Assembly: GCA_000818095.1 (NCBI GenBank)
Contig: CP009416.1
Coordinates: forward strand, 1,162,501-1,226,500
Length of the DNA stretch: 64,000 nt
Source of the DNA: Jeotgalibacillus malaysiensis
GTDB taxonomy: Bacteria; Bacillota; Bacilli; Bacillales; Jeotgalibacillaceae
Reading direction: 5' to 3'
A program made the translations under genes and the position numbers. The notes under the pieces are model-generated. The model was not told where the DNA came from, did not search any database, and saw nothing but the letters and a program-made list of their open reading frames with translations. Positions within the stretch are counted from its first letter, which is position 1; each line of letters begins with the position of its first letter. Of the stretch, positions 1 to 34,409 are shown piece by piece.

Positions 1-2404
<2,404 letters not shown>

Positions 2405-2587
2405 TATAAGAAAGTGGAAGCGACTGGTCAGCTTTGAGAGCTGGTGGAAGCCTGGATGGGTGAGACGTTAGTCTCATACAGACAGGGTGAAGCAGCCGAA
2501 AAGCTAGGAGCTGAAACTGGACTAGGTTGATTCTCGGAATCCCTTACTTTGATGAACGTATCCAGTTTTGAAGGTGCGAAAAAAGTG

Positions 2588-2616
2588 TTGCTTTTGCCTT
2601 TGAAAAGTGTTATGAT
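2588..2616 (+). promoter_or_regulatory. Candidate sigma-A promoter in the 23S-5S spacer
   Basis: TTGCTT at 2588-2593 and TATGAT at 2611-2616 are separated by exactly 17 bases, about 28 bp before the 5S gene. This would let the 5S gene and the tRNA cluster be transcribed independently of the upstream rRNA promoters. The rest of the spacer (2405-2643) shows no gene. Confidence 0.5.
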
Positions 2617-2643
2617 AGTACTTGTCGCCGAGTTGCGATATAG

Positions 2644-2759
<116 letters not shown>

Positions 2760-2764
2760 AATAT

Positions 2765-2839
2765 TCCACAGTAGCTCAGTGGTAGAGCAATCGGCTGTTA
2801 ACCGATCGGTCGTAGGTTCGAGTCCTACCTGTGGAGCCA
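2765..2839 (+). tRNA. tRNA-Asn (GTT)
   Basis: Seventy-five-base cloverleaf with acceptor TCCACAG/CTGTGGA, anticodon GTT and an encoded CCA. First of 16 tRNAs in the cluster. Confidence 0.95.
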
Positions 2840-2840
2840 T

Positions 2841-2932
2841 GGAGAGCTGTCCGAGAGGTCGAAGGAGCACGATTGGAAATCGTGTAGGCGGCTACCGCTG
2901 TCTCAAGGGTTCGAATCCCTTGCTCTCCGCCA
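2841..2932 (+). tRNA. tRNA-Ser (GGA)
   Basis: Class II tRNA of 92 bases with a long variable arm, anticodon GGA and an encoded CCA. It starts 1 bp after tRNA-Asn. Confidence 0.95.
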
Positions 2933-2941
2933 TTGCATACT

Positions 2942-3016
2942 GGCCCGTTGGTCAAGTGGTTAAGACACCGCCCTTTCACGGCGGTAACACGGGTTCGAAT
3001 CCCGTACGGGTCACCA
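2942..3016 (+). tRNA. tRNA-Glu (TTC)
   Basis: Seventy-five-base cloverleaf, anticodon TTC in loop CTTTCAC, encoded CCA. Confidence 0.95.
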
Positions 3017-3034
3017 TTTAAACTTTATTCCCAT

Positions 3035-3110
3035 GGAGAATTAGCTCAGCTGGGAGAGCATCTGCCTTACAAGCAGAGGGTCGGCGGTTCGAGCCCGTCA
3101 TTCTCCACCA
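3035..3110 (+). tRNA. tRNA-Val (TAC)
   Basis: Seventy-six-base cloverleaf with acceptor GGAGAAT/ATTCTCC, anticodon TAC and encoded CCA. Confidence 0.95.
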
Positions 3111-3131
3111 TTCTTCTTAATTTTATATCGT

Positions 3132-3205
<74 letters not shown>

Positions 3206-3211
3206 TTATCT

Positions 3212-3287
3212 GGTCCCGTGGTGTAGCGGTTAACATGCCTGCCTGTCACGCAGGAGATCGCCGGTTCGATCCCGGTCGGGACCGCCA
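3212..3287 (+). tRNA. tRNA-Asp (GTC)
   Basis: Seventy-six-base cloverleaf, acceptor GGTCCCG/CGGGACC, anticodon GTC, encoded CCA. Confidence 0.95.
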
Positions 3288-3350
3288 TTTTTCAACTCAC
3301 AGTTGAAAAATACTAATTTACATAGTAAGATAGAAAATGCTTAATTATTT

Positions 3351-3426
3351 GGCTTTGTAGCTCAGTTGGTAGAGCAATGGACTGAAAATCCATGTGTCGG
3401 CGGTTCGATTCCGTCCAAAGCCACCA
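3351..3426 (+). tRNA. tRNA-Phe (GAA)
   Basis: Seventy-six-base cloverleaf, anticodon GAA, encoded CCA. It follows a 63-bp AT-rich spacer, the longest within the cluster. Confidence 0.95.
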
Positions 3427-3432
3427 TGTGTT

Positions 3433-3508
<76 letters not shown>

Positions 3509-3515
3509 TTCATAT

Positions 3516-3599
3516 GGAGGGGTAGCGAAGTGGCTAAACGCGGCGGACTGTAAATCCGCTCCTTCGGGTTCGGCAGTTCGAATCTGCCCCCCTCCACCA
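3516..3599 (+). tRNA. tRNA-Tyr (GTA)
   Basis: Class II tRNA of 84 bases with a variable arm, anticodon GTA, encoded CCA. Confidence 0.95.
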
Positions 3600-3604
3600 T
3601 TCAT

Positions 3605-3678
3605 AGGGGCATAGTTTAAAGGTAGAACAGAGGTCTCCAAAACCTCCGGTGTGGGTTCGATTCCTACTGCCCCTGCCA
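3605..3678 (+). tRNA. tRNA-Trp (CCA)
   Basis: Seventy-four-base cloverleaf with acceptor AGGGGCA/TGCCCCT, anticodon CCA in loop CTCCAAA, encoded CCA. Confidence 0.95.
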
Positions 3679-3696
3679 ATTTTAAAATAATATTAC

Positions 3697-3773
3697 GGCG
3701 ATTGTGGCGAAGTGGTTAACGCACCGGATTGTGGTTCCGGCATTCGTGGGTTCGATTCCCATCAGTCGCCCCA
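3697..3773 (+). tRNA. tRNA-His (GTG)
   Basis: Anticodon GTG. An extra G at -1 opposite discriminator C is encoded, as expected for tRNA-His. Encoded CCA. Confidence 0.95.
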
Positions 3774-3778
3774 TATAT

Positions 3779-3853
3779 TGGGCTATAGCCAAGCGGTAAG
3801 GCAACGGACTTTGACTCCGTCATGCGTTGGTTCGAATCCAGCTAGCCCAGCCA
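3779..3853 (+). tRNA. tRNA-Gln (TTG)
   Basis: Seventy-five-base cloverleaf with acceptor TGGGCTA/TAGCCCA, anticodon TTG, encoded CCA. Confidence 0.95.
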
Positions 3854-3860
3854 TTTTTTT

Positions 3861-3935
3861 GCGGGAGTAGTTCAGTGGTAGAACACCACCTTGCCAAGGT
3901 GGGGGTCGCGAGTTCGAATCTCGTCTTCCGCTCCA
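3861..3935 (+). tRNA. tRNA-Gly (GCC)
   Basis: Seventy-five-base cloverleaf, anticodon GCC in loop TTGCCAA, encoded CCA. Confidence 0.95.
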
Positions 3936-3947
3936 TTTTTTATTTTC

Positions 3948-4021
3948 GGCGGTATAGCCAAGTGGTAAGGCACGGGTCTGCAAAACCCTTATCACCGGTT
4001 CGAGTCCGGTTACCGCCTCCA
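3948..4021 (+). tRNA. tRNA-Cys (GCA)
   Basis: Seventy-four-base cloverleaf with acceptor GGCGGTA/TACCGCC, anticodon GCA, encoded CCA. Confidence 0.95.
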
Positions 4022-4082
4022 AAATATTAAATAATAGCGATTTGTAATACGTGCATGCGTATGATAAGATTCATACTAACAT

Positions 4083-4167
4083 GCCGATGTGGCGGAATTG
4101 GCAGACGCGCACGACTCAAAATCGTGTTCCTTCGGGAGTGCCGGTTCGACCCCGGCCATCGGTACCA
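4083..4167 (+). tRNA. tRNA-Leu (CAA)
   Basis: Class II tRNA of 85 bases. The anticodon loop is CTCAAAA, giving CAA. Acceptor GCCGATG pairs with CATCGGT with one wobble. Encoded CCA. Confidence 0.93.
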
Positions 4168-4173
4168 GCATAC

Positions 4174-4247
4174 GCGGGTGTAGTTTAGTGGTAAAACCTC
4201 AGCCTTCCAAGCTGATGTCGTGAGTTCGATTCTCATCACCCGCTCCA
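4174..4247 (+). tRNA. tRNA-Gly (TCC)
   Basis: Seventy-four-base cloverleaf with anticodon TCC and encoded CCA. Last tRNA of the cluster. The first 15 follow the same order as the B. subtilis trnD cluster as I recall it; the last slot there is a second Leu tRNA. Confidence 0.94.
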
Positions 4248-32807: not shown

Positions 32808-34163
32808 TTACAGTGCTTCAGTTGTTCTTATGGCAGGGGAGGGGGGCGTTTCGACTTCTGTCACTTCTTCTTCAGAAAGCTTCCAGACCTCTAGATATAG
32901 AATATGATATCCTTCCACATCATTTACTCTAAACACATGCCCCTGTTCATAAATCTCATCCCCAACCTCAGCATTAAAGTTCCGCGTCATGAACCAGCCG
33001 CCAATCGTATCAACATCCTCTTCGTCAATATCGATATCAAGCAGTTCATTCACACTTTGAACGAGTACCTTGGAATCTAGAATATAATGATGTTCATTGA
33101 TCTGCTGAACATCAGGGATCTCATCAGCGTCGAACTCATCCTGAATTTCTCCGACAATCTCTTCAATAATATCCTCCATTGTGACAAGACCCGATGTACC
33201 GCCATATTCATCAAGCAGAATACCCATGTGCATTCTGTCTCTCTGGAATTTATGAAGCAGCTCGTGAATTGGTATGCTGTCAATTACCTGAATGATCGGG
33301 TGGGTGAATTCAGCGACTGTGCGCTTCCCGTTTCTCTGATCTTCAATGAATGCGGTCATTAATTCTTTCATGTTAATCATGCCGATAATATTATCTCTGT
33401 CTCCATCTTCAGTGACAGGATAACGTGTATACTGCTCTTCTTTCATGACTTCAAATACTTCAAGCAGCGTAAGGCCGCTGTCCACACTTGCAATTTCTGT
33501 TCGCGGTACCATAATTTCTTTTGCAACACGCTCATCAAATTCGAAAATTTTATTTACAAATTTGTATTCTGATTGATTAATCTCACCACTTTTTAAGCTT
33601 TCAGAAAGAATCATACGTAATTCTTCTTCTGAATGTGCAGCGTCATTTGCAGAAGCATGCTTTAAGCCAAGCATTCTCGTTAAAAGGCGCGCAGATCCAT
33701 TTAGAAATCTGATGAAAGGGTAAAGAACGCGGTAAAACCAGATTAATGGCGATGCAAACATCAATGTAATTTTTTCAGCCTCTTGAATAGCAATAATCTT
33801 AGGTGACAGTTCCCCAATGACAACATGTAGAAATGTAATGAGTGAAAATGCCAGTACAAAAGATAAAGCCGGTGTCCATGAAAGGTCAAACCCTGCAAAT
33901 AATGGTGCGATCATCGATGCGATGACCGGTCCGCCGATCCAGCCGAGTGCTAATGCAGAAACGGTAATGCCAAGCTGGCAGGCAGATAAATACTCATCCA
34001 GATTATCCATTACTTTTTTTGCATTAGCAGCCTTAGGATGTCCTTCTTCAAGCAGCTGGTCGATCCGGGTAGACCGGACCTTTACAATTGAGAATTCAGA
34101 AACTACAAAAAATGCAGTACATGCAAGTAAAACAACGACCAAAATTAAATTGTCTATCTCCAA
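32808..34163 (-). CDS. mpfA: CNNM/CorC-family transporter (MpfA/YhdP-like)
   Basis: A 451-aa membrane protein. DUF21/CNNM membrane domain (about 1-195: VVLLACTAFFVVSEFSIVKV, CQLGITVSALALGWIGGP, FLHVVIGELSPKIIAIQEAE), CBS-domain pair (about 215-335: IMVPRTEIASVDSG, YPVTEDGDRDNIIGMI, LLDEYGGTSGLVTMEDIIEE) and a C-terminal CorC_HlyC domain. B. subtilis MpfA (YhdP) of this family exports Mg2+. The only possible start is TTG 34163, because TAA lies in frame just upstream. Its AGGAGG is about 40 bases away, separated from the start by a hairpin (34170-34198). The upstream leader is structured. Confidence 0.9.
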   Translation of the reverse strand: MEIDNLILVVVLLACTAFFVVSEFSIVKVRSTRIDQLLEEGHPKAANAKKVMDNLDEYLSACQLGITVSALALGWIGGPVIASMIAPLFAGFDLSWTPALSFVLAFSLITFLHVVIGELSPKIIAIQEAEKITLMFASPLIWFYRVLYPFIRFLNGSARLLTRMLGLKHASANDAAHSEEELRMILSESLKSGEINQSEYKFVNKIFEFDERVAKEIMVPRTEIASVDSGLTLLEVFEVMKEEQYTRYPVTEDGDRDNIIGMINMKELMTAFIEDQRNGKRTVAEFTHPIIQVIDSIPIHELLHKFQRDRMHMGILLDEYGGTSGLVTMEDIIEEIVGEIQDEFDADEIPDVQQINEHHYILDSKVLVQSVNELLDIDIDEEDVDTIGGWFMTRNFNAEVGDEIYEQGHVFRVNDVEGYHILYLEVWKLSEEEVTEVETPPSPAIRTTEAL

Positions 34164-34360
34164 TGATGCGAGAGCATTCCCTTAAGCGGAAAGCTCTCTT
34201 CCACCTCCTGTGAATGTTAGTGTAAAGGCATCAGAGATCATCCGTCAGAATGGAGGCCCCAATGAGAGCCTTACTCTGAGCCTTCTTGCCTTTGACAGAT
34301 TGAAACAGATTCAAGTTCAGGTTCATAACCCCATCGGATTTCCTCCATTCTCATCTTAAT
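34164..34360 (-). promoter_or_regulatory. Structured leader of the CNNM transporter gene
   Basis: On the minus strand AGAATGGAGG (34342-34351) is perfectly complementary to CCTCCATTCT (34247-34256), about 85 bases later. ATCCG just after the first arm also matches CGGAT after the second arm, so alternative pairing is possible. Then AGGAGG (34204-34209) is followed by hairpin GAGAGC...GCTCTC (34170-34198) and the TTG start. A 27-codon ORF (MRMEEIRWGYEPELES...) starts within the first arm. It matches no riboswitch I know; I compared it with the M-box and the yybP-ykoY motif. Confidence 0.5.
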
Positions 34361-34409
34361 TGCCTATATTCTACCACAGTCAGCAAATTTTTTACTACCT
34401 CAATCGCAT

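Follow-up and report, generated by a model that had tools for sequence, protein, structure and literature searches.

In the split ribosome-binding sites of the T4 genes 25 and 38, a hairpin shortens the spacing between the Shine-Dalgarno (SD) sequence and the start codon from 22 to 5 nt and from 27 to 11 nt, and destabilising the structure lowers initiation (PMC3014915). In frameshifting, a review lists G_GGA_AAG as a shift-prone site (PMC5009743), and in -1 frameshifting of the lambda gpG-T type at this site a glycine tRNA leaves GGA or GGG and re-pairs with the GGG that lies one base further back. MpfA/YhdP of Bacillus subtilis and MpfA of Staphylococcus aureus are Mg2+ exporters of the CNNM family. 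The GUG start of S. aureus mpfB, a paralogue of mpfA, is limiting, and a mutation to AUG acts as a suppressor; no leader or translation mechanism for mpfA was found in these papers (PMC8844918, PMC6711546, PMC5122736). The expression of S. aureus mpfA depends on the DEAD-box helicase CshB, without which mpfA is overexpressed, as measured at the level of mRNA (PMC5122736, PMC6711546).

Here we describe the leader of a gene of the same CNNM family in a 64,000-nt stretch of contig CP009416.1 of Jeotgalibacillus malaysiensis (hereafter the window). Like the T4 genes 25 and 38, this gene has a distant SD, a hairpin between the SD and the start codon, and a short effective spacing (40 nt reduced to about 11 nt, counted from GGAGG). 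Unlike them, it belongs to a chromosomal transporter family present in many genera, with spacers of up to 116 nt, a UUG start and often a slip signal upstream, an architecture known here from sequence. The slip signal resembles the lambda gpG-T type in the predicted re-pairing of a glycine tRNA. It differs in that the slip site would be made up of the start codon and codon 2, that only the P-site tRNA would re-pair, and that the initiation SD lies just upstream. No case involving MerR or an initiation codon is found in the available part of the frameshifting review (PMC5009743), and neither a MerR frameshift nor a CNNM leader was found in the literature searched, which included few subscription papers. 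Frameshifting at codon 2 in a cellular regulator and the combination of such a slip with a bridged start codon appear to be undescribed in that literature. We consider it likely that the two devices, a hairpin bridge and a slip start, are as set out below.

The transporter gene and its leader

The window gene (32808..34163; it and all leader features given below lie on the minus strand) encodes a CNNM/CorC-type transporter of 451 aa with PF01595, CBS and CorC_HlyC domains. It is a relative of mpfA, and its product is a probable Mg2+ exporter. An extended -10 promoter, TGTGGTAGAAT (34368..34378), which a simple consensus scan did not call, occurs in the same place, identical or as a close variant, in most leaders of the genus. 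Judging from this promoter, the 5' end of the transcript is probably near 34361. The leader, of about 200 nt, folds somewhat better than shuffled sequences (z -2.0), and no transcription terminator or terminator-like site was found in it.

The comparison sample comprised about 200 loci, including leaders from 12 congeneric species and from numerous further homologues; these loci are mutually related, so that the counts given here are not independent events. It was the comparison of these leaders that moved the focus of the analysis to the bridge and the slip start.

A candidate slip start in the window leader

Soon after the inferred transcript start, the window leader has the arrangement GGAGG-N7-ATG GGG TTA TGA. 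The GGAGG (34342..34346), conserved 7-8 nt before the ATG among leaders of the genus, is the SD of a mini-ORF encoding MGL* (34323..34334) and lies inside the 5' arm (34342-34351) of a long-range helix considered below. Conservation within the genus, together with a likeness to the starts of MerR genes in relatives, makes AUG-GGG a candidate -1 slip site. A ribosome slipping at this point would enter a -1 frame of 33 codons (34231..34332; GVMNLNLNLFQ...) that ends at a TGA (34233-34231).

No MerR gene is present at the window locus, and the slip signal persists. A possible explanation is that only the bridge works in the window, and that the ATG-GGG mini-ORF is either the relic of a MerR gene since lost or simply a mini-ORF at which no frameshifting takes place. 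The absence of MerR would fit this view, as would the properties of the -1 frame, which exceeds its chance length by a modest margin only (P 0.08-0.25 for each leader against shuffles), has a weak codon-position signal (most differences fall at third positions in most pairs) and encodes a peptide that is hardly conserved. Apparent remnants of MerR starts are also known elsewhere, before the CNNM genes of loci L028 and L038 (GKFYRLEEF..., GAIYRI...), where the slip signal is kept. However, ATGGGGTTRTGA is kept in 11 of the 12 species of the genus even though its surroundings have diverged beyond alignment, the -1 frame is open in all 11, and a Leu codon in this frame varies synonymously (CTG/CTT/CTC). 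A relic or ordinary mini-ORF is thus a serious possibility, though not the reading that we favour.

In the window, the -1 frame stops 22 nt before the exporter SD, and the corresponding distance is 22-29 nt in the subclade L006-L010. For three leaders of Staphylococcus, and for L020 and L032, the position of the -1 stop relative to the SD lies between -16 and +23 nt. The gap is much longer in L011-L016 (58-130 nt) and in L022, L028, L038 and L045 (41-155 nt), so coupling is not universal. That the window leader itself slips, and that slipping is coupled to the exporter, is plausible given this geometry, and we lean neither strongly towards it nor strongly away from it.

Proposed slip starts in the MerR genes of relatives

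A search for the mini-ORF elsewhere found the signal at the very start of MerR-family genes (PF13411/PF00376) that lie directly upstream of CNNM genes. In these genes, the MerR frame (xYRIGELA...) is -1 relative to [AT]TG GGR. The arrangement was seen in all 63 unique loci of a first set and, in a second set of greater divergence, in 29 of the 30 loci whose domain was recognised. The one exception, L211, is the only sampled MerR gene of this group that lacks [AT]TGGGR in this relation, and it has an in-frame GTG, a conventional start, instead. As far as predicted reading frames go, the comparison establishes the -1 arrangement as a conserved feature of these MerR genes.

When scored with a single script, [AT]TGGG[AG] with MerR at -1 was found in 88 of 88 unique loci. 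Codon 2 is GGA in 43 of these and GGG in 45, and never GGC or GGT; the script imposed neither codon 2 nor the start codon and so did not force these counts. Starting with the codon that follows GGG, conservation tracks the codon positions of the -1 frame (mean entropy 0.73, 0.52 and 1.46), and the third base of a Leu codon is A in 46 of 52 cases, which preserves the TAG that terminates the 0 frame. The MerR genes of relatives therefore combine a conserved slip site with an open and constrained -1 frame. The signal is not present in those MerR genes of the same genomes that do not adjoin CNNM genes. The window genome has a MerR-CNNM locus of its own (L116), which carries the slip signal TTGGGAAGGCGCTAA. 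At L143 and L150, the slip-start MerR gene is followed by a YugP-like gene (a zinc metallopeptidase, named by eye) and not directly by a CNNM gene.

The -1 frame could also be entered without a ribosomal slip, through an unusual start codon, reinitiation after the mini-ORF, or transcript slippage. Such routes are suggested by L075 and L078, where an in-frame ATG overlaps the stop of the mini-ORF (TAATG), and by the in-frame GTG of L211. An in-frame ATG very close to the SD is also found in L189, a member of the second set, and in L190, examined by eye, both of which carry the slip signal as well. Yet 31 of the 63 loci of the first set have no in-frame ATG, GTG or TTG before the helix-turn-helix DNA-binding domain, and the MerR-frame codon that precedes GGG varies (GAT, ATT, CTT, GTT or TTT). 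With no more than three or four G in a row, ordinary transcript slippage is unlikely, and the GGR rule alone is universal. We therefore think it unlikely that these genes dispense with a slip. Sequencing error as the cause of the frame offset is excluded by some 90 loci across many genera.

By standard wobble, of the glycine tRNAs with the anticodons TCC and GCC only the former can re-pair from GGR back to G-GG. The -1 MerR start is most simply read as tRNA-Gly(UCC) slipping in the P site from GGR to G-GG, where the SD used for initiation lies about 10 nt upstream. Slippage of this kind would require GGA or GGG, and it fits a codon 2 that is always one of these two. As an aside, positions 1-4247 of the window hold the 23S and 5S genes that close an rRNA operon and, after them, 16 tRNA genes, among them tRNA-Gly genes with the anticodons GCC and TCC.

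Some of the MerR loci (L121, L128, L129, L131, L138 and others) also have a conserved promoter box, AACGTTTGACTGTACRSTT, that overlaps the MerR -35 region and precedes the MerR start by about 46-83 nt, and TGTACNST was found in 28 of the 63 loci. This box is perhaps an operator of MerR; the candidate MerR-bound promoter box is AACGTTTGACTGTAC. Within the genome of the window, the pattern derived from this box is matched perfectly only at the MerR-CNNM locus (G000:C1:3073885-3073902) and not at the window gene.

A hairpin between the Shine-Dalgarno sequence and the start codon

The only strong SD of the window gene is AGGAGGTG (34202..34209), of which GGAGGTG is invariant in 40 aligned homologous start regions. 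It lies 40 nt from the UUG start codon (TTG at 34161..34163), counted from GGAGG, which is beyond the workable range, and there is no other SD near the UUG. Wholly between the two is a hairpin, GAGAGCTTTCC-loop-GGAATGCTCTC (34170..34198), with 11-nt arms (34198-34188 and 34180-34170) that are 91% complementary and a predicted stability of -16 kcal/mol. With the hairpin excised, an effective spacing of about 11 nt remains, and the site thus has both features of the T4 gene 25/38 type, an SD that is too distant and an intervening structure that restores a short spacing. Among the 46 ORFs of at least 150 aa in the window, which is the only background used, the CNNM gene alone has a bridge and lacks a classical SD.

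The same order of SD, hairpin and UUG is common to about 70 CNNM genes, including those of Staphylococcus (GGAGGTGAATCCCTAGAAATAGGGAACTAATTG), and the comparison of these genes establishes the predicted bridge as a shared architecture. Their raw spacing ranges from 25 to 116 nt, reduced to about 11 nt from GGAGG when the hairpin is excised, and the start codon is UUG in 63 of 67 bridged homologues. Spacers fold better than their shuffles, with a mean z of -3.4 and values below -2 in 60 of 67. The MAFFT alignment of the spacers is not structure-aware, and covariation was therefore assessed by permuting the arms: in 70 homologues, arms from the same locus pair better than arms from different loci (18.4 against 10.3), a result reached in 0 of 1000 permutations.

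RNA hairpins at start sites frequently serve as operators, as in T4 gene 43, and the structure might accordingly be the site of a repressor protein, or an inhibitory structure, and not a bridge. Both stem and loop, however, vary freely among homologues, and what stays constant is the approximately 11 nt left after excision, as a spacing function requires. Moreover, the window UUG has no other nearby SD to serve it. We consider a repressor site or inhibitory structure improbable and prefer to read the hairpin as a bridge.

Several further pairings and starts were considered for this region and set aside. An anti-bridge pairing of 34277-34264 with 34198-34185 (79% complementary, or 12 of 14 with G-U) is, by eye, not conserved in L008-L010. 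An anti-SD in the 5' arm of the hairpin (AGGAG-GUGA-CUCCU) is confined to some subfamilies and absent in the window, an SD-like AAGGA in the 3' arm, considered as the true SD, is missing from the window and from many other loci, and the frame of a start codon inside the hairpin is not conserved. One subclade and one single locus have peculiarities of their own. In the subclade L013-L016, a conserved ACATTTC directly upstream of the CNNM SD can pair with GGAGGTGT, which would hide the SD beside the bridge and is a possible OFF state. In L060 (Bacillus haynesii), a run of T follows the bridge hairpin and gives it the look of a terminator overlapping the UUG start, the only such case among the CNNM leaders.

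Long-range helix, leader peptide and riboswitch

The first-pass annotation of this DNA had proposed a previously undescribed leader with a long-range helix, a competing short pairing and a possible 27-aa leader peptide, and had considered a metal-responsive riboswitch or leader-peptide control plausible. It did not include the SD of the gene, the 11-bp hairpin between SD and start, the ATG GGG TTA TGA mini-ORF or the promoter TGTGGTAGAAT. The 10-bp complement of 34342-34351 with 34247-34256 is indeed perfect, with 85 nt between the arms, and only about 0.02 such complements would be expected by chance in 200 nt (estimated from position pairs over 4^10). Its 3' arm, CCTCCATTCT (34247..34256), would hide the SD of the mini-ORF. 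The helix is kept only in L006-L010, through one-sided G-U changes, and it was not seen in the other subclades. Given this restriction and the lack of two-sided covariation, we reject it as the core of a switch. The competing ATCCG (34339-34335) and CGGAT (34244-34240) are both present, although a pair of 5-mers carries no weight. The comparison of homologous leaders, a check proposed in that annotation, shows the two translation devices to be conserved, the helix to be kept in close sisters only, and the 27-aa ORF not to be conserved.

An aptamer that senses a metal would suit a gene whose product is a probable Mg2+ exporter and a leader of about 200 nt that folds slightly better than shuffles, and the M-box and yybP-ykoY riboswitches are likewise leaders of divalent-cation transporter genes. 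Unlike these, the window leader matches no Rfam family, M-box and yybP-ykoY included: neither it nor any of eight related loci reached the gathering score of a model, and it gave no credible weak match, which bears out the initial impression that neither class was present. Nor is a common fold upstream of the SD shared between subclades of the genus, and conservation falls on a start/slip signal and on a ribosome-binding-site hairpin of free sequence. Nothing here points to a metal-binding aptamer, and we regard control by one as very unlikely.

Attenuation by the 27-aa ORF (ATG 34354-34352), which is present in the window, can be dismissed as a conserved feature, because an in-frame TGA (GAAATCTGA) ends it in three of four sisters (L007, L009 and L010) and the leader has no terminator-like site. 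Translation of a short upstream ORF may well matter, as the idea of leader-peptide control implied, but the conserved ORF is MGL*, in another frame. The leader is best described as a translation-control region and not a ligand riboswitch; the earlier description of an undescribed control leader ahead of a CNNM gene was correct in this sense, while its riboswitch is unsupported.

Proposed mechanism

In the bridge, the 30S subunit would bind AGGAGGUG, and the folded hairpin would cut the distance between SD and start from 40 to about 11 nt, making a weak UUG usable. Unfolding, for example by an RNA helicase, would separate the SD from the start codon and lower translation. By analogy, unwinding of the bridge by a helicase could be what underlies the effect of CshB on mpfA. 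Because the hairpin is stable, a simple switch based on Mg2+-dependent folding is unlikely.

At the slip start, a ribosome would initiate at AUG and read GGG with tRNA-Gly(UCC). It would then either stay in frame and stop immediately (MGL*), or its P-site tRNA would move back one base onto G-GG and translation would go on in the -1 frame. For relatives with an intact MerR gene and no in-frame start, slipping would be the only evident route to MerR. In the window, where MerR has been lost, the -1 frame would bring ribosomes to within 22 nt of the exporter SD, and how often they slip would determine whether translation ends at once or proceeds in the direction of the exporter. A low, tunable rate of initiation would be set by the bridge together with the UUG.

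We suspect that the most likely role of the leader is to tie synthesis of the exporter to the frequency of slipping and to the conditions of initiation, both of which may plausibly depend on Mg2+ or on the state of the ribosome. A response of the leader to Mg2+ is nonetheless a speculative element of this scheme. Equally tentative is a more general model in which the Mg2+ exporter operons of Bacillales use the ribosome as a sensor. In this scenario, an AUG/UUG-GGR slip at codon 2 would gate MerR or, in species without MerR, a leader frame that runs up to the start region of the exporter; the bridged UUG would set the output, and both devices would respond to Mg2+ or ribosome state.

Implications

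To our knowledge, little is known of how Mg2+ export is controlled in bacteria. Two conserved translation devices preceding the exporter genes, both in relatives of Bacillus and in Staphylococcus, would offer a concrete mechanism, and the bridge provides one possible explanation for the dependence of mpfA on CshB. A cellular regulator gated by a conserved frameshift at its second codon would, as far as we know, be a first. MerR genes that begin in this way may be mis-annotated or called pseudogenes. The bridged start codons suggest that a chromosomal gene family makes established use of the hairpin-spaced ribosome-binding site known from T4.
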